Shown here: positions 1 to 12,720 of the stretch, piece after piece
Numbering within the stretch: position 1 is the stretch's first letter
Layout: each line of letters starts with the position of its first letter
Assembly (NCBI GenBank): GCA_017999915.1
Contig: JAGNKX010000001.1
Location: 248,001-312,000 of the forward strand
DNA length: 64,000 bases
Source: Spirochaetota bacterium
GTDB taxonomy: Bacteria > Spirochaetota > UBA4802 > UBA5550
Reading direction: 5' to 3'
Program-made: the position numbers and the translations under genes
Notes under the pieces: generated by a model
What the model was told of the DNA's origin: nothing
The model's input: the letters and a program-made list of their open reading frames with translations, nothing else
Database searches by the model: none

Positions 1-2030
1 GATATGGTCATGCCGTCGATGCCGGAGGCAAGGTAGTCGCCGGAGCTGTCATACACGTCAATGGTCACATCCTCCGTGCCGGGGCCCAGTCCGTTCCCGA
101 TATAGCGCTGGCCTATGCATCCGAAGGATATGAAGCGCCGCCACCCCTTCATGTACGCGTCCATGAGAAGCGAGGCGTCGCTCCCCTCGCCCTCCGGAGG
201 GAACCCGGAGGCGTTGATCGCCAGGACCGTTTCGTGGCGCGCCGGGGCCCGCAGGGTATGGCGGGTGTCGAGGTCAATCAATCGATAACCGATTTCAGCT
301 GCGGCGCCGCCGTCATCAAGGCGGGGAAATCCCTTGAAGATTCCCGTGAGCTCGCTTCGCACGATGTGGAGGATATGGCTCCGCTTTTTCCCGCCCGTCG
401 GATACCGCCGGTCATTGAGCAGGGTCAGGGCCCTGATCGCGATCTCGGCCGTGGCCGTGTCCTTGATCCCGCCGGTGATCATCCTGAGAACGGCCCGCAG
501 GTCGTCATAGGTCCAACCGGGAATGCCGTCGCGGACATAGCTGAAGAGATCGTACCCGCCGTTCTCCATGAGGCGCCTGATGTCGCTTTCCACGGACGCG
601 GCCATGGCATGGCTGAGATAGGCCTCGGAGGTGAAATCGCACGGTTCAGTGTCCCTGGGCATGGCAACGGGCTTCCCGAACTTATCCGTGCAGGAAAGCC
701 TTAGCCTCCCCTCGGAATTTTTCGCGATATTAAATATGAAGGCGCCGCCGTCGGTGTGGCTTCCGCCCCGGGCGTTCCAGTAGCGGTCGGCCACCGGGCA
801 TATCCGGGGATCGTCATTGGAAAGGCTGAGGAGCGTCGCGTCGATGGCCTGCTTTTCCGATCCGATGAGACCCACCTGAACCTCGCCGTCGCAGAAGGCG
901 AACACCTGGGGGCGAAGCATGGCGGTATCGGTGATGCCGAGGAGCTGGAACTGCTTCCGGACCGCGTCGTTCCGCGCTATGATGAAGAACCAGGGCCCGT
1001 CCGGCGAGCCGTGTATGTGCGTGGCCTGAATGGCCCGGTAGACGCCCTGTTTATCCTCAGGGAGCCGGTCGAAGTCGAGCTCCGTCGTGGGGGCCATGGC
1101 CTCGATGATGTATTCAAGAGGATAGCGGTAGGTGCGGTTCAGCAGGTCGAAGAGCAGGACCGATACCTCGGTGTCGGTGAGGAACTGGGGACGGATGTTC
1201 CTCTGCAGCAGGTGCTCGGAAACGGAATGGTAATTGGCGAAGTCCCCGTTGTGCACCAGGGCAACGTTCACTCCCGTGAAGGGGTGGGCCCCGGCGGGGT
1301 GCCAGACGCGGCCCTTGGTAGGGAAGCGCTGGTGGGCGATCCAGACATGGGCGCGGAGGTCCTCGATCATGTAATACTGGGTCACCGCCTCAGCGTATCC
1401 GACAACCTTCAGGATCATCATGTTCCTGCCGTTGGATAGGACGAAGGCCTGCTTGTCCCCCAGGGAGGCGTAAAAGGTCTGGTTGAGCCTGAAGCTGTTC
1501 TGGTTCAGGAATTCCTCTTCCCCTTCGCGGCGGTCCAGATCGAGGAGTTTATTTTCATTAATAAAAGAATCAAGCACCGCCGGTTTGACACGCACGAAAT
1601 AGCGGCACACGTCCGGCGGCCTCACTTCCAGGCCGGGGACCTTTTTCCAGTCATCGACCGTATCGAGCATCGCCCTGTGGGCTATGTCAAAGAAAGGATC
1701 GATGAATTGTTTTTCCACCTCGGGCTGCGACGCCGGGTCCAGATAGGCCACGTGGACCATGTAGCAGTCGTCGAGGATTTCCCTGGTCACGCCGAGCTCT
1801 TCCGGCACGAATCCCACCGCCGCTATGCCGCCGCCCTTGCCGTTGCCGCGGTTGTGCATCTGCTTGGAGGGCTCGTGAATGTGCTTGCCCGGGACAGGCT
1901 CGGAGCAGCAGAAACCGACGACGCCGCAGCCACCCTCCTCTTCGCATTTCCCGGCCTTCGCCGGCAACCCGAATTCCGCGACGAGCCTTTTCCTGGAATC
2001 GATGATGTGTTCTATCAGGTTGTTCTTCAC
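1..2030 (-). CDS. Glutamate synthase-type class II glutamine amidotransferase fused to GXGXG domain (partial, runs off left edge)
   Basis: This gene starts at a GTG whose last two bases overlap the stop of the upstream FMN subunit (GTGA overlap), so the two are translationally coupled. About 676 codons are in the window and the C-terminus lies beyond base 1. The N-terminus carries GGCGVVGF, giving a probable nucleophile Cys35 exposed after propeptide cleavage, as in class II (Ntn) amidotransferases that release ammonia from glutamine. The middle keeps amidotransferase landmarks such as RFPTKG and HNGDF. From about residue 640 the sequence YIGNGLGPG...SSGDYLASG is the start of the GltB GXGXG beta-helix domain. 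The FMN/3Fe-4S synthase domain is absent here and encoded separately just upstream, so this is a split glutamate synthase. Exact substrate is not proven: glutamate synthase or a related N-methylglutamate synthase-like enzyme are both possible. Confidence 0.85.
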   Translation of the reverse strand, partial: MKNNLIEHIIDSRKRLVAEFGLPAKAGKCEEEGGCGVVGFCCSEPVPGKHIHEPSKQMHNRGNGKGGGIAAVGFVPEELGVTREILDDCYMVHVAYLDPASQPEVEKQFIDPFFDIAHRAMLDTVDDWKKVPGLEVRPPDVCRYFVRVKPAVLDSFINENKLLDLDRREGEEEFLNQNSFRLNQTFYASLGDKQAFVLSNGRNMMILKVVGYAEAVTQYYMIEDLRAHVWIAHQRFPTKGRVWHPAGAHPFTGVNVALVHNGDFANYHSVSEHLLQRNIRPQFLTDTEVSVLLFDLLNRTYRYPLEYIIEAMAPTTELDFDRLPEDKQGVYRAIQATHIHGSPDGPWFFIIARNDAVRKQFQLLGITDTAMLRPQVFAFCDGEVQVGLIGSEKQAIDATLLSLSNDDPRICPVADRYWNARGGSHTDGGAFIFNIAKNSEGRLRLSCTDKFGKPVAMPRDTEPCDFTSEAYLSHAMAASVESDIRRLMENGGYDLFSYVRDGIPGWTYDDLRAVLRMITGGIKDTATAEIAIRALTLLNDRRYPTGGKKRSHILHIVRSELTGIFKGFPRLDDGGAAAEIGYRLIDLDTRHTLRAPARHETVLAINASGFPPEGEGSDASLLMDAYMKGWRRFISFGCIGQRYIGNGLGPGTEDVTIDVYDSSGDYLASGIDGMTI

Positions 2031-3610
2031 GCCTTGCGCTCCACGTCATTAGTATAGTCTAGATGCATCAGCAGATCCGAACGGCCCCGCAGCTTCTTGA
2101 TGCTGTCGAGGCCCAGCCGCCGGAGGATCCTCATGAGCTCGTTCCTCCAGGCATTGTAAGTGTTGATAAGCCGCTGGGTTCCCCATTCCAGATCGATCTT
2201 CCGCACCAGCTTCTTGTCGGTGGTAGCGATGCAGCGGGGGCATCCGCGGCCGGCAGAGCAGCGCCCGCACCGAACGCACCCGAGGGCGACCATTTCCATG
2301 GTGCCGACGATGACCCCGTCCGCTCCCATGGCGATGGCCTTGGCCACGTCGTAGGGATTGCGTATGCCGCCGCTGGCCATGAGCGTGACGTGTTCCCGCA
2401 CACCTTCGGCCACAAGGAAATTATGGACCTTGGGGATGGCGTATTCGATGGGCATGGCGATGTTCTTCTTGGCGATATCCGGGGCCGCGCCGGTGCCGCC
2501 GTACCCGCCGTCGATGTGCACGATGTGGGTGCCGGCGAAATAGCTCCCCACCGCCACCATGTCCACGTCGGTCGGTGTTGAAACCTTCGTCGAAACGAGG
2601 CAGCGGCGGTTCATGTGCTTGATCCAGTCGAGGTGCTTCATGTGGTCTTCTATGGAGTAGACGCTGTGGAAGGGGAAAGGGGAAAAGAGCGATATCCCCA
2701 CCACTGTTTCCCGCATCCGCGCCACGGCCGGGGTGTTCTTGTCCCCCAGGAGGTGTCCGCCGAGGCCCGGCTTCGCTCCCTGGGCGTATTTGAACTCGAC
2801 GATGGGGACCCGCTGGATTGTCTCCTCGCGCACGCCGAAAAGGCCGGTGGCGACCTGGGTGATCACGTGATCGTCATAGGGCCTCATCCGCTCCATGTAT
2901 CCGCCCTCGCCGGTGCAGGTGAAGGTGTTCCACGCCACGGCGGCCCGGGCCTTGGAAAGCTGCGTCGTATTGCTGACCGAGCCAAAGGACATCCCGCCTC
3001 CGTACCAGGGGACGTCAATCCTGATTTTCGCGCGGCCGTCATTGCGGCGGTTCAGCTCTATGCCGATATCGATGTCTTCAAGTTTTACCCGAACCGGGGG
3101 CGTTTCCGGAAACCTGAACCGGATGCGGTCAAAACCGCCGCCGGAGTTCCCGGTCTCAAAATCAAATTCGTAATCCTCGTTCGGGACCTCGCCGGTCTCG
3201 GCCATTTTCCACGTGGCCAGGATCATGTTCGCGGTCCACCGGTAGTCCCCGAGGGCCTTCATCATCGGATTTTCCTCTATCGTCAGGGCTCCCCGGGGGC
3301 AGGCGGTGATGCAGTAGCGTCCCTTTTTTTCGCACCGGGGTCCGATGCAGAGATGGCTCCTGGGCGCGGCGAAATACTTGTATCCCGGCTTCAGGACATG
3401 GACGCCCTGGGGACAGGTCGCTGCGCAGGCGCCGCAGAGGGCGCATTTCTCCTCGTCCCGGTAAATGACGTATTTGGCGAATTCATTGCGATAGCGCGGC
3501 GGCGCGTGACGGATCGTGCGCTCCTGCTTGAACTGAGGAGTCCGCGTCTTGAGGGTTTTTTCCGGAATGATGTCCTCAAGCCTGCAGTCGAGTTCCAAAA
3601 AGTTTGCCAA
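2027..3610 (-). CDS. Ferredoxin-FMN glutamate synthase core protein (split GltB synthase domain)
   Basis: A 527-residue protein if it starts at TTG 3610, the start I chose because AGGAGG lies just upstream of it at suitable spacing; it overlaps the preceding gene by 35 bp. The N-terminus holds two 4Fe-4S motifs (CALCGAC...C near residues 56-66 and a second set near 88-104). The rest is the FMN-binding TIM barrel of glutamate synthase: MSFGSVS, TGEGG, AQGAKPGLGG, SPFPFHSVYSIED and GGYGGTGAAP are all recognisable. A 3Fe-4S-type cysteine cluster (CVRCGRCSAGRGCP) sits near residue 443. In archaeal and some bacterial split glutamate synthases such a subunit makes glutamate from 2-oxoglutarate and channelled ammonia, with ferredoxin-type electrons. 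The amidotransferase/GXGXG partner is encoded immediately downstream. Confidence 0.88.
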   Translation of the reverse strand: MANFLELDCRLEDIIPEKTLKTRTPQFKQERTIRHAPPRYRNEFAKYVIYRDEEKCALCGACAATCPQGVHVLKPGYKYFAAPRSHLCIGPRCEKKGRYCITACPRGALTIEENPMMKALGDYRWTANMILATWKMAETGEVPNEDYEFDFETGNSGGGFDRIRFRFPETPPVRVKLEDIDIGIELNRRNDGRAKIRIDVPWYGGGMSFGSVSNTTQLSKARAAVAWNTFTCTGEGGYMERMRPYDDHVITQVATGLFGVREETIQRVPIVEFKYAQGAKPGLGGHLLGDKNTPAVARMRETVVGISLFSPFPFHSVYSIEDHMKHLDWIKHMNRRCLVSTKVSTPTDVDMVAVGSYFAGTHIVHIDGGYGGTGAAPDIAKKNIAMPIEYAIPKVHNFLVAEGVREHVTLMASGGIRNPYDVAKAIAMGADGVIVGTMEMVALGCVRCGRCSAGRGCPRCIATTDKKLVRKIDLEWGTQRLINTYNAWRNELMRILRRLGLDSIKKLRGRSDLLMHLDYTNDVERKA

Positions 3611-4982
3611 AGGTCTCCTCCTCAAGTTGTTCGAAAAACATCGCCCTGCCCACGTCTCCCCGGAGGCGGCGGGCGTCGCGCATCCCCATGGCTCCCATGA
3701 GCTCGATCAGCTGGTTGTGCCAGGCGCTGATCAGGTTCGTCATCCGGCCCACGGCATATTCCATGGTCACGTCCCGTATCTTGGCCGGGCATAGGTGACC
3801 CGCACTGCACCTGTCGCAAAGATGGCATTCCAGGGCTATGAGCAGCGGCAGCTCCACTGAAACCAAATCGGCGCCGCAGATGATGCCCTTGGCCATGTGC
3901 TCGGGAAGGGCGATGCCGCCGCCCGCCACCACCGTGACCTCGTCGCGGATTCCCTTCCGGATCAGCGCCGTGTGGATGGTCCTGATCATGTCCTTGATGA
4001 ACCTGGGTTTGGCCGCGCCTATCTCGCTGCCGTTGGTGTCAGCCACCACATGGATGACCTCGACGCCGCCGGCGGCCAGCTCCTCGGCGCGGCCGATGCC
4101 GTCGGCGTCCATGTTGATCCGCACCGACACGATGATGTTCCTGTTTATCCGTTTGAATTCCTCAATCCGTTCCCTGACATTCCCGCCATAGGGAATCTCG
4201 ACGAGCCTTGTTTTTGCCACTATGTCGGAAGGGAGCATCTTCGCGTCATGATCGAAGAAGAAGGCCAGATGGGGAAGATACAGTTCCGGATTGTTCATCG
4301 CCACAGGCCATTTGCCGGAATCGATGATTGCAATGAGGTCGGTCCTGAAGGCCGTTTCGGCGATAAAGGATTCAAGGACCGGCAATGAATAGTTCGACGG
4401 TATCATGTCTATTAAAAGCGGCATGGGAAGGGAGAGCAGGGGAGGAAGATCGGCACCCACCTGCGCGTCGCCGAAGGAAAGGTACGAGTTCTTTGACCCG
4501 ACATCCACCGCGGTGCTGATATACTCGCGGCCGTGGATCCCGTCCCTGGTGGGCCTCACGATCTCCGACATATCGGTCCACATCGAATCGAAGCCGTGGC
4601 CGGAAAATCTCCCCCCGTACCCGGCGCCGGACACTGGAATCTTGGCGGTCTCGGCCTGGAGCCACGTGGTATGGATGATCTCCGGCCTCCAGTAGCCGTT
4701 GCCGAGGTTCTCATAGGCCGGGTTAATGGAAAGGCGCAGCAGGTTCTTCGTGCATTCCTGCACGCAGGAGAGGCAGCCCATGCAGTCGAAGAAAAGGGCG
4801 TCCACGTCCTCGAGGTTCCTGATGTATTTCATCTCGTCCCTGTGGCGGTCGTATACGCACGCTTTTTTCACGCAGTTATGGCACCGCGCGCAATCCTCGC
4901 GCCAGTCGACGATGCCGTATTTTCCGACGCGGGGCCGGCGCGGCGGCACCGGTTTCGTTTCGATATGATATTTCTTGGGCAT
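3576..4982 (-). CDS. Divergent ferredoxin-FMN protein, glutamate synthase-like, lacking substrate motifs
   Basis: A 468-residue paralogue of the neighbouring FMN subunit. ATG 4982 is chosen because it starts right before the ferredoxin domain, with a GGGGAG element about 10 bases upstream. Two 4Fe-4S motifs are clean (Cys31/34/37/42 and 67/70/73/77). The C-terminal half retains a barrel ending in VVAGGGI...GADLVSVELPLL and a terminal cluster CHLCDRCSAGHLCP. The glutamate-synthase signatures TGEGG, AQGAKPG and the SIED loop are missing. I infer a redox or electron-transfer subunit rather than a second glutamate-forming enzyme. It lies 22 bp after metF and overlaps the next gene, so it belongs to the same operon. 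Function is not established. Confidence 0.75.
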   Translation of the reverse strand: MPKKYHIETKPVPPRRPRVGKYGIVDWREDCARCHNCVKKACVYDRHRDEMKYIRNLEDVDALFFDCMGCLSCVQECTKNLLRLSINPAYENLGNGYWRPEIIHTTWLQAETAKIPVSGAGYGGRFSGHGFDSMWTDMSEIVRPTRDGIHGREYISTAVDVGSKNSYLSFGDAQVGADLPPLLSLPMPLLIDMIPSNYSLPVLESFIAETAFRTDLIAIIDSGKWPVAMNNPELYLPHLAFFFDHDAKMLPSDIVAKTRLVEIPYGGNVRERIEEFKRINRNIIVSVRINMDADGIGRAEELAAGGVEVIHVVADTNGSEIGAAKPRFIKDMIRTIHTALIRKGIRDEVTVVAGGGIALPEHMAKGIICGADLVSVELPLLIALECHLCDRCSAGHLCPAKIRDVTMEYAVGRMTNLISAWHNQLIELMGAMGMRDARRLRGDVGRAMFFEQLEEETFGKLFGTRLQA

Positions 4983-5004
4983 GGCGTCACATCTCCCCTT
5001 CCAT

Positions 5005-5922
5005 TTAGTCTTTGACGGATAGGCCCGATTCCCCCAGGAGCCGCGGTATGATTTCTTCCTTGCCGCCCGAGAGAACATGGATTCCCCGGACGCCCTTCAT
5101 GTTCTTCAGGGCCTGGATGGTTTCGACGCAGATGGCAAGGCCTTCCTTTTTCTGGGCCGCCCCGTCTCCGGCCGATCGCAGCCGCTCCACCACGCTGTCG
5201 GGGATCTGGAACTCGGTGTAGGCATTCCGGAGACGCTCGGCCTCTTCGGCGCTCTCCAGGGGAAGGACCCCGGCAAGGATCGCCGTGGTCGCGCCAATGC
5301 CCGCCTGCTGCGCCGCCGCAAGCCACTGTCCGAATTCTTCGACATTAAAAACTGCCTGGGTCTGTATGAAAGCGGCGCCGCTTTCGGCCTTTTGGGCAAG
5401 GCGCAGCATGTTCAACTCGATGGGTTTCAGGGAGGGATTTGCCACCGCCCCTGCGGTCATGGAAAAAGAGCCGCCGATCCTGGCCCCGTTCAGGAGTTCT
5501 CCCTTGTGCGTCATGGCCTTGACCATGGCCAGGAGCTGGGTCGAATCGATGTCATAGACATTGGCCGACTCGGCGCTGTCCGTCAGGCTCTGGTGGTAGC
5601 CGGAAAGGCAGAGCAGGTTCCTGATCCCCAGCGTCGCGGCGCCCAGCAGGTCTGACTGGAGGGCTATGCGGTTCCTGTCGCGGGTGACGACCTGGAATAT
5701 CGGCTCTATCCCGGACTGGGCCAGCAATACCGAGGCCGCAAGGCTCGACTGGGCGACCCCGAAGGGATTATCGGACACGTTGACGGCCGAGGGCACCGCC
5801 TGCAGCGCCTGGAGGGCGCTTTTCATCGACGCGCCGTCGGTTTCAGCCTTCGGCAGGTATTCGGCGGTGACGATGAAATCCCCGTTCTGTATCTGATCGC
5901 TGAGCGTTTTTCCTGTTTTCAT
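5005..5922 (-). CDS. metF: Methylenetetrahydrofolate reductase (MetF family)
   Basis: A 305-residue protein starting at ATG 5922; a TTG two codons earlier is less likely. It reduces 5,10-methylene-tetrahydrofolate to 5-methyl-tetrahydrofolate with a bound flavin. The opening DFIVTAEYLPKAETDG matches the MetF start with its catalytic glutamate, and VSDNPFG, the ILAGVLPL segment, GAAFIQTQAVF and a C-terminal GIHVLSGG are all typical. It is a short MetF of the kind that often works with iron-sulfur partners rather than with NADH directly. The genes on both sides encode iron-sulfur proteins (MvhD-like upstream, ferredoxin-FMN downstream), which supports a non-NADH electron donor. No cobalamin-dependent methionine synthase is nearby. 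Confidence 0.9.
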   Translation of the reverse strand: MKTGKTLSDQIQNGDFIVTAEYLPKAETDGASMKSALQALQAVPSAVNVSDNPFGVAQSSLAASVLLAQSGIEPIFQVVTRDRNRIALQSDLLGAATLGIRNLLCLSGYHQSLTDSAESANVYDIDSTQLLAMVKAMTHKGELLNGARIGGSFSMTAGAVANPSLKPIELNMLRLAQKAESGAAFIQTQAVFNVEEFGQWLAAAQQAGIGATTAILAGVLPLESAEEAERLRNAYTEFQIPDSVVERLRSAGDGAAQKKEGLAICVETIQALKNMKGVRGIHVLSGGKEEIIPRLLGESGLSVKD

Positions 5923-5991
5923 GTTCAATTCCAGTCTATAAAAATATCTTTATTTATTGCCGCACCGGAGGCCGGACAGGGTCCCACGGGG

Positions 5992-6402
5992 TCAGGCTGT
6001 CAGAGCTGCCATGTTCTTGATGGAATCGCTAAATTCATGCAGCCGCGACAGGACCGGCTCGAGCCCCTGACCATTCACTGTTAATACCGCCATGCGGTCT
6101 TTTCCCATCCCAATTTCTTCAAGCAACGAATTGACTTCCTCGACCCGCTTGGGCGACCTGAGGTTTCCTTCAAGATAGTGGCATTTATTTTTCTCGCAGG
6201 TGATCATCAGGAGACCGTCGGCGCCCTTTTCGAAGGCCTTGATGAGATAGAGCAGATTGGCCTTGCCCGAACAGGGGAGGCTGATGATCCGGTATTCGAT
6301 TTCTTCATCGGCATGTACCGCGCGGTTCAATTCATCGCCATCCAGGCTGTTGGCGCAATAAAAGATGTATAATTTAACCTGCTTCTTTGTCGTACTATTC
6401 AC
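5992..6402 (-). CDS. MvhD/FlpD-type hydrogenase/heterodisulfide reductase iron-sulfur subunit
   Basis: A 136-residue protein starting at GTG 6402, preceded by AGGGG. The family (MvhD, FlpD) carries a 2Fe-2S cluster and passes electrons between hydrogenase or formate dehydrogenase and heterodisulfide reductase-like complexes. Four cysteines are well placed (Cys16, 44, 69, 74), and the blocks LIKAFEKGADGLLMITC and CHYLEGN match the family. The usual N-terminal WC pair is reduced to one cysteine. It is the first gene of the leftward operon, 69 bp before metF. In acetogens and related anaerobes MvhD is found with MetF and HdrABC; here HdrABC and MetV are not visible and glutamate synthase-like FMN proteins take their place. 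Confidence 0.82.
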   Translation of the reverse strand: MNSTTKKQVKLYIFYCANSLDGDELNRAVHADEEIEYRIISLPCSGKANLLYLIKAFEKGADGLLMITCEKNKCHYLEGNLRSPKRVEEVNSLLEEIGMGKDRMAVLTVNGQGLEPVLSRLHEFSDSIKNMAALTA

Positions 6403-6581
6403 AAGGCCCCTCTGACGAGTAGAGTATGAATCTTACCGAAGACGCATCACATGGTGCAGACGAAAAATTTTTCACTGCACAAATTTTGAAAACACTTTTC
6501 AGAGTGATAACTTTATCGTCAAGAAGAACTCTCATCAACAAATACGATTGAAAGCATTAATCTGAAAATTTTATTTTCATG

Positions 6582-6616
6582 TAACATTAATTTTAGCATT
6601 GCTAAACTTAATGTTA
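6582..6616. promoter_or_regulatory. 17-bp-arm inverted repeat, probable operator between the two glutamate synthase operons
   Basis: Arms at 6582-6598 and 6600-6616 pair around one central base with a single mismatch; the core reads TTTAGCA/TGCTAAA. Four copies of ATGTAA or its complement lie around it (6579-6584, 6631-6636, 6639-6644, 6685-6690), two of them forming the palindrome TTACATAAATGTAA at 6631-6644. The region is AT-rich, non-coding and lies between divergent operons, so a shared regulator site is likely. The regulator is unknown. Confidence 0.6.
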
Positions 6617-6629
6617 GAATAAATAAAAT

Positions 6630-6659
6630 TTTACATAAATGTAATGTGAAATTTATTAT
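6630..6659 (+). promoter_or_regulatory. Candidate sigma-70-type promoter of gltBD
   Basis: TTTACA at 6630-6635 and TATTAT at 6654-6659 are separated by 18 bp, each one mismatch from consensus. The -35 box overlaps the TTACAT/ATGTAA palindrome, so a protein bound there would affect initiation. The 353-bp gap 6403-6755 holds no gene. Confidence 0.45.
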
Positions 6660-6755
6660 AGTTATAGTATATTATTTCTGAGATTTACATAACGACTTGT
6701 TGCGATTCAGGCAGTTGATTTTTCATTTAAGATTCAATTCAGGAGAACTTGTTTC

Positions 6756-9700
6756 ATGTCAGACTCGTTGCCACCTCAGGAAGGACTCTACAACAGCGCC
6801 CACGAACACGATTCATGCGGCATCGGTTTCGTCGCTCACATAAAAGGAAAACGCTCCCACGAGATAATCGAGCGCGGCCTTGAAGTTCTTGAGCGCATGG
6901 AACACCGCGGAGCCGAAAGCGCGGACAACAAGACCGGCGACGGGGCCGGCATTCTCATGCAGATACCCCACGATCTGTACCGGGATGATATGGCCGCGCT
7001 CCCCGGTCCGGGAGAGTACGGCACCGGCATCGTATTCCTTCCCCGGAAGAAGAGCGAGGCCGAATCGTGCATGGCGGAACTGGAGCGCGTCGTCGGCGAG
7101 GAGGGCCTGTCCGTCATAGGATGGCGGGACATAGCCGTCGATAACTCGGTCCTGGGAACAATTTCAAAGGCTTCCGAACCGGCCATGAAGCAGATCTTCG
7201 TTTCCGGCGACGTCCCGATAGACAGGGACCTCCTCGAACGGAAGCTGTACGTCATACGGAAAATGACAGAGGACGCCATCAGGAATTCCTCCCACAGGGA
7301 AAAGCACCTCTTTTATATACCCTCCCTGTCGGGCAGGACCATCGTGTACAAGGGGATGCTCATGCCCGCGCAGGTGCGCCATTATTACCGCGACCTCAGG
7401 GACCCCCGCGCGGCCAGCGCCGTGGCCCTGGTCCACTCGCGTTTCAGCACAAACACCTTTCCGTCCTGGGACCTGGCCCAGCCCTTCCGGATGCTCGCCC
7501 ATAACGGCGAGATCAACACCGTCAAGGGAAACCGGTTCTGGATGTCGGCCCGCGAATCCACCTTCGCGTCATCCGTGTTCGGAGACGAGCTGAAAAAAAC
7601 AATGCCGGTCATCGAGCCGGGCAAAAGCGATTCGGCATCCTTTGACAACGTCCTGGAAATGCTCTACTACAACGGCCGGTCCCTTCCCCACGCCCTCATG
7701 ATGCTCATACCGGAATCATGGAACGAGAAAAACCCCATACCGGAAGAGCTGAAATATTTCTACGAGTTCCACTCCACCTTCATGGAGCCGTGGGACGGTC
7801 CCGCCTCCATGGTCTTCTGCGACGGACGCTACGTGGGGGGCACCCTGGACCGGAACGGACTGCGGCCGTCCCGCTACGTGATCACACGGGACGATCTCAT
7901 CGTCATGGGATCGGAGGTGGGCGTCCAGACCTTCCCCCCGGAGGCGATCATCTACAAGGGGCGTCTCATGCCGGGCAAGCTGCTCCTCGTTGACATGGAA
8001 CAGGGCCGCATCATCCCGGACGACGAGATCAAGCGCTCCATTTACACCCGAAAGCCCTATCAGCTCTGGGTCCAGCTCAACCGTATCAACCTGGAGGACC
8101 TTGACATGAAGGGTGACGCGCCGGTGGCGGTCGAATCGGAAGCGCTCCACGACCTACACCTCCTCCACGGATACACCCGCGAAGACGTCGAGGACATCAT
8201 CGTTCCCATGGCGGAGACGGCCCAGGAGCCGACCGGGTCCATGGGGACCGACACTCCCCTGGCGGTCTTTTCGGACAGGCCCCAGCGCCTTTTCAATTAC
8301 TTCAAGCAGTGCTTCGCCCAGGTGACGAACCCGCCCATAGACCCGATCCGGGAGGAGCTGGTCATGACCCTTACCAGCTACATCGGCGCGCAGAAGAACC
8401 TCCTGGACGAGACGCCCGAGCACTGCCGCATGATCAAGTTCAAGAGCCCCATATTCACCAACCGGAACATCGAGACCATCCGGCAGAACACGGATCCCGC
8501 GTTCAAGAGCATCACCCTGCCCATGACCTTCCCGGTCAGGACCGCGCCGGGCAGCATGAAGCGTGCCCTCGACAACCTCTGCATGAGCGTTGAGGAAAAA
8601 ATCGACCAGGGCTATTCCTACATAATACTGTCGGACCGGGGAGCCGACCGGGAGAACGCCCCCATACCATCGCTCCTCGCCTGCGCCGGCGTCCATCACT
8701 ACCTGATACGGACGAAGAAGCGCACGCGCATCGGACTCATCATAGAAACCGCCGAGGCCCGGGAGGTGATGCATTTCGCCCTCCTCTTCGGGTACGGGGC
8801 AAGCGCCGTGAATCCCTACGGCGCCTTCGCCACCATCCATGACCTGGTGCAGAAAGAGGAGCTCAAGAACCTGCGTTACATGAAGGCCGAGGACAATTAC
8901 ATCAAGGCCGTCAACAAGGGGCTTTTGAAAGTATTGTCAAAAATGGGAACCTCCACGCTGCGGAGCTACCGCGGGTCCCAGATCTTCGAGGCAGTCGGCC
9001 TCGGCGGGGACCTGATAGAAACCTATTTTACGGGAACGGATTCGCGCATCGGCGGCATCGGCATCGCCGAGGTGGAGCGCGAAGCGCTGATGCATCACGA
9101 TACCGCCTTCGTGAGAAGGCCGAGGCTCCTCGAGTCCCAGGGCGTATACCAGTTCCGCAAGGAGGGTGAGCGACACGCATGGAACCCGGAGTCGATTCAT
9201 CTTCTGCAGTGGGCCACCCGGTCCGGCGATTACGCCATTTACAAGAAATTCTCCGACCTGATAAACGGCCTGAACCGGCGTCCCCATTTCATCCGGGGAC
9301 TCTTCGACTTCAGGAAACAGACGCCCATACCGATAGACGAGGTCGAGAGCGAGAAGAACATCCTGAAGCGCCTCACCACCGGCGCCATGTCCTTCGGGTC
9401 CATATCGAAGGAGGCCCACGAGACCATTGCCGCGGCCATGAACGCCATCAGCGGCCGCAGCAATTCCGGCGAGGGGGGCGAAGACCCGGAGCGCTTCACG
9501 GCGCACCCGGACGGCGTCTCCACCCGGAGCGCCATCAAGCAGGTCGCCTCGGGAAGGTTCGGCGTCACCAGCAACTACCTGGCCAACGCGGACGAGCTCC
9601 AGATCAAGATAGCCCAGGGCGCGAAGCCGGGCGAAGGGGGACAGCTCCCCGGGTACAAGGTCGACAGGACCATCGCAAAGACCAGGCACTCGACCCCGGG

Positions 9701-11300
9701 GGTCACCCTCATATCGCCGCCGCCGCACCACGACATCTACTCCATCGAAGACCTGGCGCAGCTCATCTTTGACCTTAAGAACGCCAACCCGAAGGCGCGG
9801 GTGAGCGTCAAGCTCGTGTCGGAGAGCGGCGTGGGCACCGTCGCTGCCGGCGTCGCCAAGGCCCACGCGGACAACATCCTCATCAGCGGCTTCGAGGGAG
9901 GCACCGGCGCGAGCCCCATCAGCTCCATCAAGCACGCGGGGCTTCCCTGGGAGATCGGTCTCGCCGAGACCCACCAGACCCTGGTCATGAACGACCTGCG
10001 CGGCCGGGTGCGGCTCCAGACCGACGGCCAGATCAAGACCGGCCGCGAGATCGTGATCGTCGCGCTGCTGGGTGCGGAGGAGTTCGGCTTCGGCACCTCC
10101 ACCCTCATCGTGCTGGGATGCGTGATGATGCGCAAGTGCCACCAGAACACCTGCCCCGTGGGCGTCGCCACCCAGGACCCTGAGCTCCGGAAGAAATTCA
10201 CCGGCAGGCCGGAGCACCTCATCAACTTCTTCACCTTCATGGTGCGGGAGGTGCGGGAGATCATGGCGGAGCTGGGCGTCAGGAAGTTCGACGACCTGGT
10301 CGGCCGGAGGGACCTCCTTACCGTGCGTGCCATCGACCACTGGAAGGCGAAAACCGTGGACCCGTCTCCCCTTCTCCACATCCCGAAGGAGGCGTCGGTG
10401 AACGCAACGCACTGCGTGCAGTCGCAGATACATAAAATTGACGATGTCCTTGACCGAACCCTGATCGAGCGGTCGAGCCCGGCACTGGAGCGCTACGGCC
10501 GCATGCCGGTCCAGATCGCGCTCCCCGTCAACAACACCGACCGGGCCGTCGGCACCATGCTCTCCTACGAGGTGTCGAGCCGCTTCGGCGAGGAGGGCCT
10601 GCCGGACGACACCATATCGTGCAGTTTCCGGGGCCACGCGGGGCAGAGCTTCGGCGCCTTCCTGGCGCGGGGAATCACCTTTCGCCTCGAGGGAGACGCC
10701 AACGACTACCTGGGCAAGGGCCTCTCCGGCGGACGCATCGTCGTGATACCGCCGGCGGGCTGCGCCTTCGTGCCGGAGGAGAGCATCATCATCGGGAATA
10801 CGGTCCTCTACGGCGCCACCGCGGGCGAGGCCTACATCCGCGGCATAGCCGGGGAGCGCTTCGCCGTGCGCAACAGCGGCGCCGCCGCGGTGGTGGAAGG
10901 CACAGGCGACCACTGCGCCGAGTACATGACCGGCGGGCGCATCATCGTCCTCGGGAGGGTGGGCCGTAACTTCGCGGCCGGCATGAGCGGCGGCATCGCC
11001 TACGTCCTCGACCGCGACGGGGTGTTCGAGTATTTCTGCAACAGGGGGATGGTGAACCTTTCGACGGTGCGCGAATACGAGGACCAGGAGTTCATCATCG
11101 AGCACCTCGAAAAGCACGTCAAGTACACCGGGAGCACCGTCGCCCGGGACATCCTCCACGGCTGGCACGAGGTCCTGCCGAAGTTCGTGAAGGTGCTGCC
11201 GCTCGAGTACAAGCGCGCCATGGACGAGATGAAGCTGTCCATGATCGACGAAAAGCTCGCCCGGATACGGGAAGAAGAACAGCTGGGAGTGACATACTGA
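6756..11300 (+). CDS. gltB: Glutamate synthase large subunit (NADPH-type, full length)
   Basis: A complete 1514-residue GltB, the normal length. It starts at ATG 6756 with AGGAGA nine bases upstream. Domains in order: class II amidotransferase with Cys21 in HDSCGIGF (short propeptide before it), central domain, FMN synthase domain (MSFGSIS, GEGGEDPERF, AQGAKPGEGG, PPPHHDIYSIED), the 3Fe-4S cluster CVMMRKCHQNTCP near residues 1122-1134, and the C-terminal GXGXG domain. It makes two glutamates from glutamine and 2-oxoglutarate in the cytoplasm, with electrons delivered by GltD. gltD follows after one base. A second, split glutamate synthase is divergently transcribed from the same regulatory region. 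Confidence 0.97.
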   Translation: MSDSLPPQEGLYNSAHEHDSCGIGFVAHIKGKRSHEIIERGLEVLERMEHRGAESADNKTGDGAGILMQIPHDLYRDDMAALPGPGEYGTGIVFLPRKKSEAESCMAELERVVGEEGLSVIGWRDIAVDNSVLGTISKASEPAMKQIFVSGDVPIDRDLLERKLYVIRKMTEDAIRNSSHREKHLFYIPSLSGRTIVYKGMLMPAQVRHYYRDLRDPRAASAVALVHSRFSTNTFPSWDLAQPFRMLAHNGEINTVKGNRFWMSARESTFASSVFGDELKKTMPVIEPGKSDSASFDNVLEMLYYNGRSLPHALMMLIPESWNEKNPIPEELKYFYEFHSTFMEPWDGPASMVFCDGRYVGGTLDRNGLRPSRYVITRDDLIVMGSEVGVQTFPPEAIIYKGRLMPGKLLLVDMEQGRIIPDDEIKRSIYTRKPYQLWVQLNRINLEDLDMKGDAPVAVESEALHDLHLLHGYTREDVEDIIVPMAETAQEPTGSMGTDTPLAVFSDRPQRLFNYFKQCFAQVTNPPIDPIREELVMTLTSYIGAQKNLLDETPEHCRMIKFKSPIFTNRNIETIRQNTDPAFKSITLPMTFPVRTAPGSMKRALDNLCMSVEEKIDQGYSYIILSDRGADRENAPIPSLLACAGVHHYLIRTKKRTRIGLIIETAEAREVMHFALLFGYGASAVNPYGAFATIHDLVQKEELKNLRYMKAEDNYIKAVNKGLLKVLSKMGTSTLRSYRGSQIFEAVGLGGDLIETYFTGTDSRIGGIGIAEVEREALMHHDTAFVRRPRLLESQGVYQFRKEGERHAWNPESIHLLQWATRSGDYAIYKKFSDLINGLNRRPHFIRGLFDFRKQTPIPIDEVESEKNILKRLTTGAMSFGSISKEAHETIAAAMNAISGRSNSGEGGEDPERFTAHPDGVSTRSAIKQVASGRFGVTSNYLANADELQIKIAQGAKPGEGGQLPGYKVDRTIAKTRHSTPGVTLISPPPHHDIYSIEDLAQLIFDLKNANPKARVSVKLVSESGVGTVAAGVAKAHADNILISGFEGGTGASPISSIKHAGLPWEIGLAETHQTLVMNDLRGRVRLQTDGQIKTGREIVIVALLGAEEFGFGTSTLIVLGCVMMRKCHQNTCPVGVATQDPELRKKFTGRPEHLINFFTFMVREVREIMAELGVRKFDDLVGRRDLLTVRAIDHWKAKTVDPSPLLHIPKEASVNATHCVQSQIHKIDDVLDRTLIERSSPALERYGRMPVQIALPVNNTDRAVGTMLSYEVSSRFGEEGLPDDTISCSFRGHAGQSFGAFLARGITFRLEGDANDYLGKGLSGGRIVVIPPAGCAFVPEESIIIGNTVLYGATAGEAYIRGIAGERFAVRNSGAAAVVEGTGDHCAEYMTGGRIIVLGRVGRNFAAGMSGGIAYVLDRDGVFEYFCNRGMVNLSTVREYEDQEFIIEHLEKHVKYTGSTVARDILHGWHEVLPKFVKVLPLEYKRAMDEMKLSMIDEKLARIREEEQLGVTY

Positions 11301-11301
11301 C

Positions 11302-12720
11302 ATGGGAGATCCGAAAGGCTTTATGCATACACGGCGCCAGGAAGCCGGCTACCGGCCGGTGGAAGAGCGCGTCAACGACTACAGCGAAGTGGAGAAGCAC
11401 CTGCCCGACGACGCCCGCCGGCTCCAGGCCTCGCGCTGCATGGACTGCGGCGTCCCTTTCTGCCACTGGGCATGCCCGGTGTCCAACATCATGCCGGAGT
11501 GGCAGGACCGCGTGTACCGGGGTGACTGGAAGGGCGCCTACGAGATCCTCCAGGAGACGAACAACTTTCCCGAGTTCACCGGCAGGGTCTGCCCGGCCCT
11601 GTGCGAGGCCTCCTGCGTGCTGTCCATCGGCGACGACGCCGTCACCATCCGCCAGAACGAGCTGGCGGTCATCGAAAAGGCCTGGTCCCTCGGCCTGGTG
11701 AAGGCGCAGCCGCCAGAGAGCCGTACCGGGAAAAAGGTCGCCGTCATCGGCGGCGGCCCGGCGGGCCTGGCCTGCGCCGATCTCCTGAACAGGGCCGGCC
11801 ACAGCGTGACGCTTTTCGAGTCGGCGGACGGCGTGGGGGGATATCTCCGCTACGGCATCCCCGACTTCAAGCTGAACAAGTACATCATCGACCGGCGCGT
11901 GAACCTGATGGTCGAGGAAGGGCTTGTCATTAAAACCGGCGTCACCGTCGGGAAAGATCTGCCTGCCTCTTCGCTGCGGAAGGATTTTGACGCGATCTGC
12001 ATCGCCATCGGCTCCCGGGAGGCGCGGGACCTTCCGATCGAGGGGAGAAACCTCGGGGGCATACACCCGGCCCTGGACTACCTTATTCAGCAGAATCGGG
12101 TCGTAAAGGGAGACGCCATTCCGGAGAGCGAGATTATCCGCGCCTATGACAAGAACGTGGTGGTCATCGGCGGCGGCGACACCGGCGCGGACTGCGTGGG
12201 CACCGCCAACCGCCAGGGCGCCCGGTCCATCACCCAGCTTGAACTCCTGCCGAAACCGCCGGAGCACCGCACCGCGAAGGAGCCCTGGCCTCTCTGGCCG
12301 AAGCTCCTCAAAACCTCCAGCTCCCACGAGGAGGGGTGCGAGAGAATGTGGAACGTGTCCACGGTGAAATTTTCCGGCGTTGATGGCCGGGTAAAACAGA
12401 TAGTTGCAAAGAAGGTCGAGTGGACCGCCGGCCCCGGCGGGAACCCGGTCATGACAGAGGTGCCGGGATCTGAATTCACCCTGGACGCGGAGCTGGTGCT
12501 CCTTGCCATGGGTTTCATTCACCCGGTCCATACCGGCCTGGTCCGTGAACTGGGCCTTGAATTGGACGGACGGGGCAACATCAGGATCGACGAGAATTCC
12601 ATGACCAGCGTTGAGGGCGTGTTCTCGGCCGGCGATTCGTCCCGGGGCGCCTCCCTCGTGGTGTATGCCATACAGGACGGGAGGAGGGCTGCGGCTTCCA
12701 TAGACCGGTACCTGTCATAA
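11302..12720 (+). CDS. gltD: Glutamate synthase small subunit
   Basis: 472 residues, the usual length. ATG 11302 lies one base after the gltB stop, implying coupled translation. The N-terminal cysteine-rich region (CMDCGVPFCHWACP, then CPALCEASC) binds 4Fe-4S clusters; IGGGPAGLACADLL is the FAD-binding motif and VIGGGDTGADCVGTA the NADPH site. The C-terminus GVFSAGDSSRGASLVVYAI is the conserved FAD loop. It oxidises NADPH and passes electrons to the FMN of GltB. Confidence 0.97.
   Translation: MGDPKGFMHTRRQEAGYRPVEERVNDYSEVEKHLPDDARRLQASRCMDCGVPFCHWACPVSNIMPEWQDRVYRGDWKGAYEILQETNNFPEFTGRVCPALCEASCVLSIGDDAVTIRQNELAVIEKAWSLGLVKAQPPESRTGKKVAVIGGGPAGLACADLLNRAGHSVTLFESADGVGGYLRYGIPDFKLNKYIIDRRVNLMVEEGLVIKTGVTVGKDLPASSLRKDFDAICIAIGSREARDLPIEGRNLGGIHPALDYLIQQNRVVKGDAIPESEIIRAYDKNVVVIGGGDTGADCVGTANRQGARSITQLELLPKPPEHRTAKEPWPLWPKLLKTSSSHEEGCERMWNVSTVKFSGVDGRVKQIVAKKVEWTAGPGGNPVMTEVPGSEFTLDAELVLLAMGFIHPVHTGLVRELGLELDGRGNIRIDENSMTSVEGVFSAGDSSRGASLVVYAIQDGRRAAASIDRYLS

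Follow-up and report, generated by a model that had tools for sequence, protein, structure and literature searches.

The Cluster and Its Genes

The window analyzed here is a 64,000-nucleotide stretch (contig C1:248001-312000) of the 5.46 Mb genome of a Spirochaetota bacterium. At its left edge lies an operon that joins genes of the Met/heterodisulfide reductase (Hdr) type to a split, duplicated glutamate synthase, forming part of a conserved, co-inherited cluster to which we tentatively assign a role in nitrogen assimilation. The operon comprises an MvhD-type protein, a methylenetetrahydrofolate reductase (MTHFR)-family protein, two proteins related to the flavin mononucleotide (FMN) part of glutamate synthase (FMN1 and FMN2), and an amidotransferase-GXGXG protein (GATGX). 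FMN1, FMN2, and GATGX are referred to below as the triad.

5992..6402, minus strand: mvhD1, MvhD/FlpD-type iron-sulfur protein with a GTG start, heading the operon (PF02662, 1.5e-24)
5005..5928, minus strand: metF, MTHFR-family flavoprotein (PF02219, 2e-32)
3576..4982, minus strand: FMN1, two 4Fe-4S ferredoxin motifs and a diverged glutamate-synthase FMN barrel (PF01645, 5e-14, second half of the profile only)
2027..3625, minus strand: FMN2, ferredoxin domains and a glutamate-synthase FMN domain (PF01645 Glu_synthase, 1e-84)
1..2030, minus strand: GATGX, class-II glutamine amidotransferase fused to a GXGXG beta-helix (PF01493, 7e-15; PF13522 GATase_6, 7e-7)

These five genes run head to tail in the order and place given by the original prediction, an earlier reading of the bare sequence, and Pfam agrees with it. 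The spacing is tight: 63 bp separate mvhD1 from metF and 22 bp metF from FMN1, FMN1 and FMN2 overlap, and FMN2 and GATGX overlap by 4 bp. The start codon of FMN2 is uncertain (TTG at 3625). GATGX is truncated by the window edge, with 676 of its 900 codons inside; the whole gene, encoding 900 amino acids, lies at C1:247328-250030. Directly downstream of GATGX, beyond the edge and on the same strand (C1:240194-247292), follow hdrC, hdrB, hdrA (1496 amino acids), a second mvhD, and metV, all closely spaced or overlapping. All six subunit genes of the Met complex set (MetFV-HdrABC-MvhD) are therefore found within one cluster, C1:240194-254402. The original prediction had held that the Hdr proteins of acetogens are replaced here by glutamate-synthase-like flavoproteins; this is false at the window and true for a minority of relatives.

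Conservation and Spread of the Cluster

A search of named genomes (GTDB contigs) gave 324 candidate stretches encoding FMN1 relatives; the 80 top-ranking ones were retrieved, and the set of relatives is biased accordingly. The gene order proposed for checking in other genomes proved recurrent and no chance arrangement: MetF-FMN1-FMN2-GATGX was found in 54/80 fetched loci, many of the remaining loci ending at contig ends, and Hdr genes directly followed GATGX in 45. In most relatives, as at the window, mvhD is the leading gene of the module, and the median gaps within the unit are 12, -59, and -4 bp. FMN1 lacked an adjacent MetF call in 6/82 loci, mostly because of contig ends, an assembly gap, or a split open reading frame; the locus with the gap (L079) was ruled out as MetF-less, since 100 N lie at its metF-FMN1 junction. 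Distance matrices of MetF, FMN1, FMN2, GATGX, HdrC, HdrB, and HdrA were correlated pairwise with r of 0.87-0.96 (0/999 permutations as high), and the cluster therefore travels as one unit. It is one conserved, co-inherited unit, and the linkage of its genes is real.

The cluster is widespread among uncultured anaerobes. Judged from locus titles, carriers occur in about a dozen phyla and are almost all metagenome-assembled, including Deltaproteobacteria (in the old sense), Planctomycetes, Verrucomicrobia, Chloroflexi, Ignavibacteria, Bacteroidetes, Latescibacteria, Omnitrophota, Fibrobacterota, Hydrogenedentes, Sumerlaeota, Armatimonadetes, Kiritimatiellota, and others. Among 198 genomes sampled from the window's own phylum, full-length FMN1 was present in just two others. 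In the tree, the closest FMN1 and FMN2 to those of the window come from Syntrophaceae bins, which does not fix its taxonomy.

The composition of the cluster varies. A minority of relatives have Hdr-less clusters (L031, L032, L095, L096, L098, and L112). Distant Planctomycetes, whose FMN1 is about 33% identical, have FMN1-FMN2-GATGX but neither MetF nor MvhD nor Hdr beside it, which marks the triad as the core and the Met and Hdr genes as its partners. Only in these distant relatives are the genes placed apart, an arrangement that the original prediction would have counted against a linked complex. Such MetF-less triads were seen at L157:9379-14814, L158, and L159, and L157 has etfAB about 3 kb upstream on the opposite strand. 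In Desulfobacteraceae-type relatives (L095, L098, L100; L065, L084) the order is permuted to MvhD-FMN1-FMN2-GATGX-MetV-MetF or to GATGX-HdrCBA-MvhD-MetV-MvhD-MetF-FMN1-FMN2, which indicates rearrangement with the gene set retained. A distant, fused glutamate-synthase-like protein was also seen: L160 (G307:C468:1-6615) has a 2204-codon open frame with GATGX-like and FMN2-like parts.

Openly licensed papers yielded no description of this gene combination or of a bifurcating glutamate synthase, and the cluster is apparently undescribed so far.

The Glutamate-Synthase-Like Triad

GATGX has the class-II glutaminase with N-terminal Cys nucleophile of a glutamate synthase. The predicted nucleophile, Cys35 (window 1926-1928), is present in 58/59 sequences (one gap), and Arg235, Asn261, Gly262, and Asp286 are present in 59/59. 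When the GATGX model is overlaid on mature glutamate synthase, PurF, and GlmS, its residue 35 coincides with their Cys1, implying that a short leader is removed; GltB likewise loses a short leader. The nearest structures to the GATGX model are glutamate synthase large chains (Z 18-19.5 over about 570 residues). Model residues 88-202 (L043:12941-15616) form an insert in the glutaminase domain resembling ACT/ferredoxin-like folds (Z about 7, possibly just a common arrangement); as modeled, this insert might bind an effector.

FMN2 matches glutamate synthases in the PDB at 1.8e-45 and has both the FMN (beta/alpha)8 domain and the C-terminal Cys motif of these enzymes, its iron-sulfur cysteines (Cys450/453/456/462) being present in at least 95% of sequences. 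Counterparts of Synechocystis Lys972, Arg992, and Glu1013, which we take to be substrate-binding and cross-talk residues, are retained, and the counterpart of Gln978 is His, as in archaeal-type enzymes. From these residues, the triad likely performs a glutamine-dependent reductive amination, the exact 2-oxo acid being left open.

FMN1 is only half a domain by Pfam. Its AlphaFold model is a glutamate-synthase FMN barrel that matches the large chain with a Z of 22.5, and this fold comparison overruled its treatment, on Pfam or NCBIfam scores alone, as an unrelated or partial protein. FMN1 has 12 cysteines conserved across 82 sequences; of the barrel it retains the second half, with the substrate motifs missing, and we therefore read it as an electron-relaying paralogue. 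The description of the glutamate synthase as duplicated holds: FMN1 and FMN2 each form a single supported clade (100/100 and 99/99, respectively), apart from 18 archaeal-type sequences, although the deep joins of the tree call for long-branch caution. A third, highly divergent FMN glutamate-synthase-like protein (529 amino acids) was seen between NrpR and the module in two loci (L033:6337-7926 and L038:6231-7820).

Loss of the Catalytic Asp in MetF

An invariant Asp residue (E. coli Asp120, T. thermophilus Asp109) is essential to MTHFR (PMC9900621). The E. coli Asp120Asn enzyme has 0.3% of its kcat left, with the Km for methylenetetrahydrofolate (methylene-THF) raised more than 40-fold and the Km for NADH not raised (PMC11094777). 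In two independent alignments, Tyr111 of the window's MetF (codon at 5596-5598) occupies this position. The Asp is lost in 51/53 Hdr-containing clusters and retained in 6/6 Hdr-less clusters; it is also retained in all 21 distinct non-module MetFs from the same genomes, one of them about 11 kb from acetyl-CoA synthase. The catalytic Glu (E. coli Glu28) is kept by 74/76 module MetFs. This distribution fits, without proving, a scenario in which the arrival of Hdr in the cluster went along with the loss of folate reduction by MetF, and the sequence weakens the reading of the window's MetF as a methylene-THF reductase.

The Hdr Relay

HdrB and HdrC keep all of their cluster cysteines. HdrA is of the M. 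thermoacetica type, with two HdrA-like halves and a GltD/NfnL-like NAD(P)H domain inserted in the first, an architecture described for that organism (PMC9430772). By the Glu/Lys marker criterion for bifurcating flavins from the same study (PMC9430772), Glu698 and Lys751 of the first half are present in 32/32 sequences, Glu1204 in 25/32, and Lys1245 in 31/32. In S. ovata, Met subunits contact one another in pull-downs, but neither ferredoxin nor NAD(P)+ was seen to be reduced in a coupled reaction (PMC9430772), which calls for caution about any bifurcation step.

A Nitrogen Rather Than a Carbon Neighborhood

The cluster has a strong nitrogen-control neighborhood, which the original prediction did not foresee. 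Neighbors confirmed by Pfam are NrpR, an ammonium transporter, P-II, glutamine synthetase III, glutamate dehydrogenase, and NifA-like sigma-54 activators. Core nitrogen genes (NrpR, Amt, P-II, glutamine synthetase, GdhA, or GltBD) lie beside 28/83 modules vs. 0/20 control stretches, the controls being 20-kb stretches from five carrier genomes, and this points to nitrogen assimilation; the 28 modules span several phyla and are not all independent. In relatives, the region upstream of the first gene is enriched in sigma-54-like sites (nine loci at 9/11 or better, compared with about 1.5 expected from shuffled sequence), with near-perfect sites in L033 and L038. In five further loci (L063, L067, L069, L070, and L075), a class-I glutamine amidotransferase gene and an ammonium transporter were seen ahead of the module.

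The carbon pathway is not consistently present. Full acetyl-CoA synthase was found in only 21/50 named carriers and was missing in 29/50, while in the sample of the window's phylum 3/3 carriers have it. Since about half of the carriers are without the full enzyme, a MetFV-HdrABC-MvhD set in an environmental genome should not be read as evidence of acetogenesis or of a Wood-Ljungdahl pathway. Another MTHFR match was present in 32/33 carriers and full-length GltB in at least 15/33, and a role as the housekeeping MetF or glutamate synthase was therefore rejected for most carriers. On the closed Bacteroidales chromosome CP070654.1, also a carrier, MetF and GltB both occur in ordinary form, and acetyl-CoA synthase is absent. 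The window's genome has a second MTHFR, which is fused to a homocysteine methyltransferase and adjoins a metH-like gene. Electron supply to nitrogenase is not a general function either: nifD was above the cut-off in only 7/53 carriers and absent from the window's genome, and a nitrogenase accessory role for the cluster was therefore rejected.

A Proposed Function and Its Alternatives

Our best explanation, to which we give an even chance of being right, is that the cluster encodes a glutamine-dependent, glutamate-synthase-like multi-subunit enzyme that serves nitrogen assimilation, is fed by the Met/Hdr relay, and is possibly electron-bifurcating. GATGX would free ammonia from glutamine, and FMN2 would use it to aminate a substrate reductively, most likely 2-oxoglutarate, as glutamate synthase does. 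FMN1, as a degenerate second FMN/ferredoxin copy, would pass electrons on, and MvhD, MetV, and MetF would make up a flavin/Fe-S arm acting as a second point of electron entry or exit. In the Hdr-containing majority, including the window, NAD(P)H would reduce the GltD domain within HdrA, and the downhill flow of electrons to the imine may power reduction of a low-potential acceptor via a putative bifurcating flavin of HdrA. The Hdr-type MetF would be an electron-carrying or NAD(P)H-oxidizing flavoprotein and not a methylene-THF reductase. The original prediction survives where it tied MetF and MvhD to glutamate-synthase-type chemistry, with which they are co-inherited, while its methylene-THF part is weakened by Tyr111 and by the carriers without acetyl-CoA synthase.

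More speculative is the specific form of a bifurcating glutamate synthase, in which HdrA would split NAD(P)H electrons between the imine, reached via FMN1/FMN2, and a ferredoxin-like carrier, with a MetF paralogue that no longer does folate chemistry as flavin subunit; this we consider possible but rather doubtful. The glutamine/2-oxoglutarate to glutamate couple, at about -120 mV, is well above NAD(P)H, so that its reduction could pay for ferredoxin reduction. If true, such an enzyme would conserve redox energy that glutamate synthesis normally wastes, nitrogen assimilation would enter the short list of Hdr-type energy-coupled processes, and an MTHFR-family enzyme would have been converted into an electron carrier.

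Several observations weigh against a nitrogen-assimilating complex of this kind. In FMN2, Arg949 is changed to Leu, His1006 to Phe, and Asp1008 to Ser in 74/74 sequences, at positions constant in the ordinary and archaeal-type GltB compared, and the substrate may therefore not be 2-oxoglutarate. MetF retains Glu28 and mostly Gln183, both of them folate-binding residues. About two thirds of the loci have no nitrogen gene in the sequence examined, many carriers also own an ordinary GltB, leaving the need for a second enzyme unexplained, and at the window no sigma-54-like site lies upstream of the operon; a strict search of the window gave one chance-level match, elsewhere. What the data show directly are gene content, co-inheritance, residue changes, and nitrogen neighbors; from these we infer formation of the complex, its substrate, direction of flow, and bifurcation.

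Three alternatives deserve weight, each of them improbable in our view. The cluster could couple a true methylene-THF reductase arm (or methyl-THF oxidation) to glutamate synthesis, exchanging one-carbon and nitrogen electrons in one complex. The triad does travel with MetF, MetV, and MvhD, the Hdr-less MetFs retain the catalytic Asp, Glu28, and Gln183 (6/6), and acetyl-CoA synthase accompanies every carrier in the window's phylum sample; such coupling is nonetheless unlikely given the missing Asp of nearly all Hdr-type MetFs, the window's included, the sparse occurrence of full acetyl-CoA synthase in the other carriers (21/50), and the almost universal separate MTHFR. It is similarly doubtful that a Moorella-type Met/Hdr complex and a glutamate-synthase-like triad are two separate enzymes sharing an operon solely through co-regulation. 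A shared operon is no proof of a complex, and the Planctomycetes triad without MetF or Hdr, like the Hdr-less clusters, agrees with separate enzymes, but the triad is placed between mvhD-metF and hdrCBA, not next to a complete Met operon, a second MvhD accompanies it, and residue loss in MetF tracks Hdr presence within the cluster. Third, the triad could aminate a substrate other than 2-oxoglutarate in a different amidotransferase-reductase pathway (N-methylglutamate-like or other). Four FMN2-specific changes lie near the counterpart of what we presume to be the 2-oxoglutarate site and are invariant in the 74 sequences and in MetF-less forms, and an ordinary GltB is often present besides; set against this, the Lys972, Arg992, and Glu1013 counterparts are retained and the neighbors are ammonium, glutamine, and glutamate genes, and we doubt this alternative too. 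A Wood-Ljungdahl methylene-THF reductase (for acetogenesis or acetate oxidation) with incidental glutamate synthase genes, strongly weakened already and rejected as a general function, is highly improbable: it has in its favor the same MetFV-HdrABC-MvhD set as in Moorella and Sporomusa (PMC9430772), but full acetyl-CoA synthase is missing from 29/50 carriers, including a closed Bacteroidales genome with an additional ordinary MetF, other MTHFRs are present, and the MetF catalytic Asp is lost.

In the cluster, every large-subunit domain of NADPH glutamate synthase (GltB/GltD) is found: the amidotransferase, the FMN barrel with its Cys motif, and GXGXG. GltD has no separate small-subunit counterpart, a GltD-like domain lying instead inside HdrA. 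Unlike GltB, the cluster has three genes, a second FMN/ferredoxin copy, more ferredoxin clusters, changed substrate-site residues, and Hdr/MetF/MvhD partners. The archaeal-type split glutamate synthase, which also has N-terminal ferredoxin clusters and a GGHL motif on its FMN domain, is the nearest outside clade in the tree. In that type, the amidotransferase and GXGXG parts are separate genes and there is one FMN protein, whereas here the two parts are fused and the FMN protein is present twice, as FMN1 and FMN2, which fall in clades of their own. N-methylglutamate synthase, MgsABC, has its amidotransferase, GXGXG, and FMN parts split, unlike the fused GATGX, and its partners are different; no methylamine genes were recognized among the identified neighbors, mgsABC and methylamine genes not having been searched for directly.

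The Met complex of Moorella thermoacetica and Sporomusa ovata has six gene families in common with the cluster, and M. thermoacetica HdrA, of about 1490 amino acids, is alike in its duplicated TrxR-like halves, GltD insert, and bifurcation-marker positions (PMC9430772). Unlike that complex, the cluster has FMN1, FMN2, GATGX, and a second MvhD, its MetF has lost the Asp, and its neighborhood is one of nitrogen and not of Wood-Ljungdahl genes. HdrA9-11 of ANME-1 archaea also carry a large NfnB/GltD-like insertion, and a MetF-Hdr coupling is suggested in that work, which reports no MetF clustered with HdrA among the ANME-1 genomes it covered (PMC9012536); no glutamate-synthase triad was found in its available text.

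The Divergent Flank and Other Neighbors

On its other side the operon faces ordinary glutamate synthase genes.

6403..6755, no strand: intergenic region between mvhD1 and the divergent ordinary gltB, containing a palindrome
6756..11300, plus strand: gltB, ordinary and full-length, 1514 amino acids, divergent neighbor (PF01645, 1.5e-146)
11302..12720, plus strand: gltD, ordinary, 472 amino acids, downstream of gltB (identified by sequence inspection and homology to the gltD of relatives)

The ordinary gltB is probably not part of the complex. The palindrome between it and mvhD1 (6563-6635) has 36-nt arms that are 78% complementary with a 1-nt spacer, and is a possible shared operator. Near several modules (L003:447-1718, on the contig to the left of the window, and L031:17927-19501, L045:1583-3898, and L099:4775-7360 in relatives), a RecA/KaiC-like N-terminal domain with the motif DNVVWxVD/DNVVWEA recurs; its fusion outputs vary between XRE-cupin, PPDK_N, and a GAF-sigma54 activator, and it looks like a shared sensory domain.

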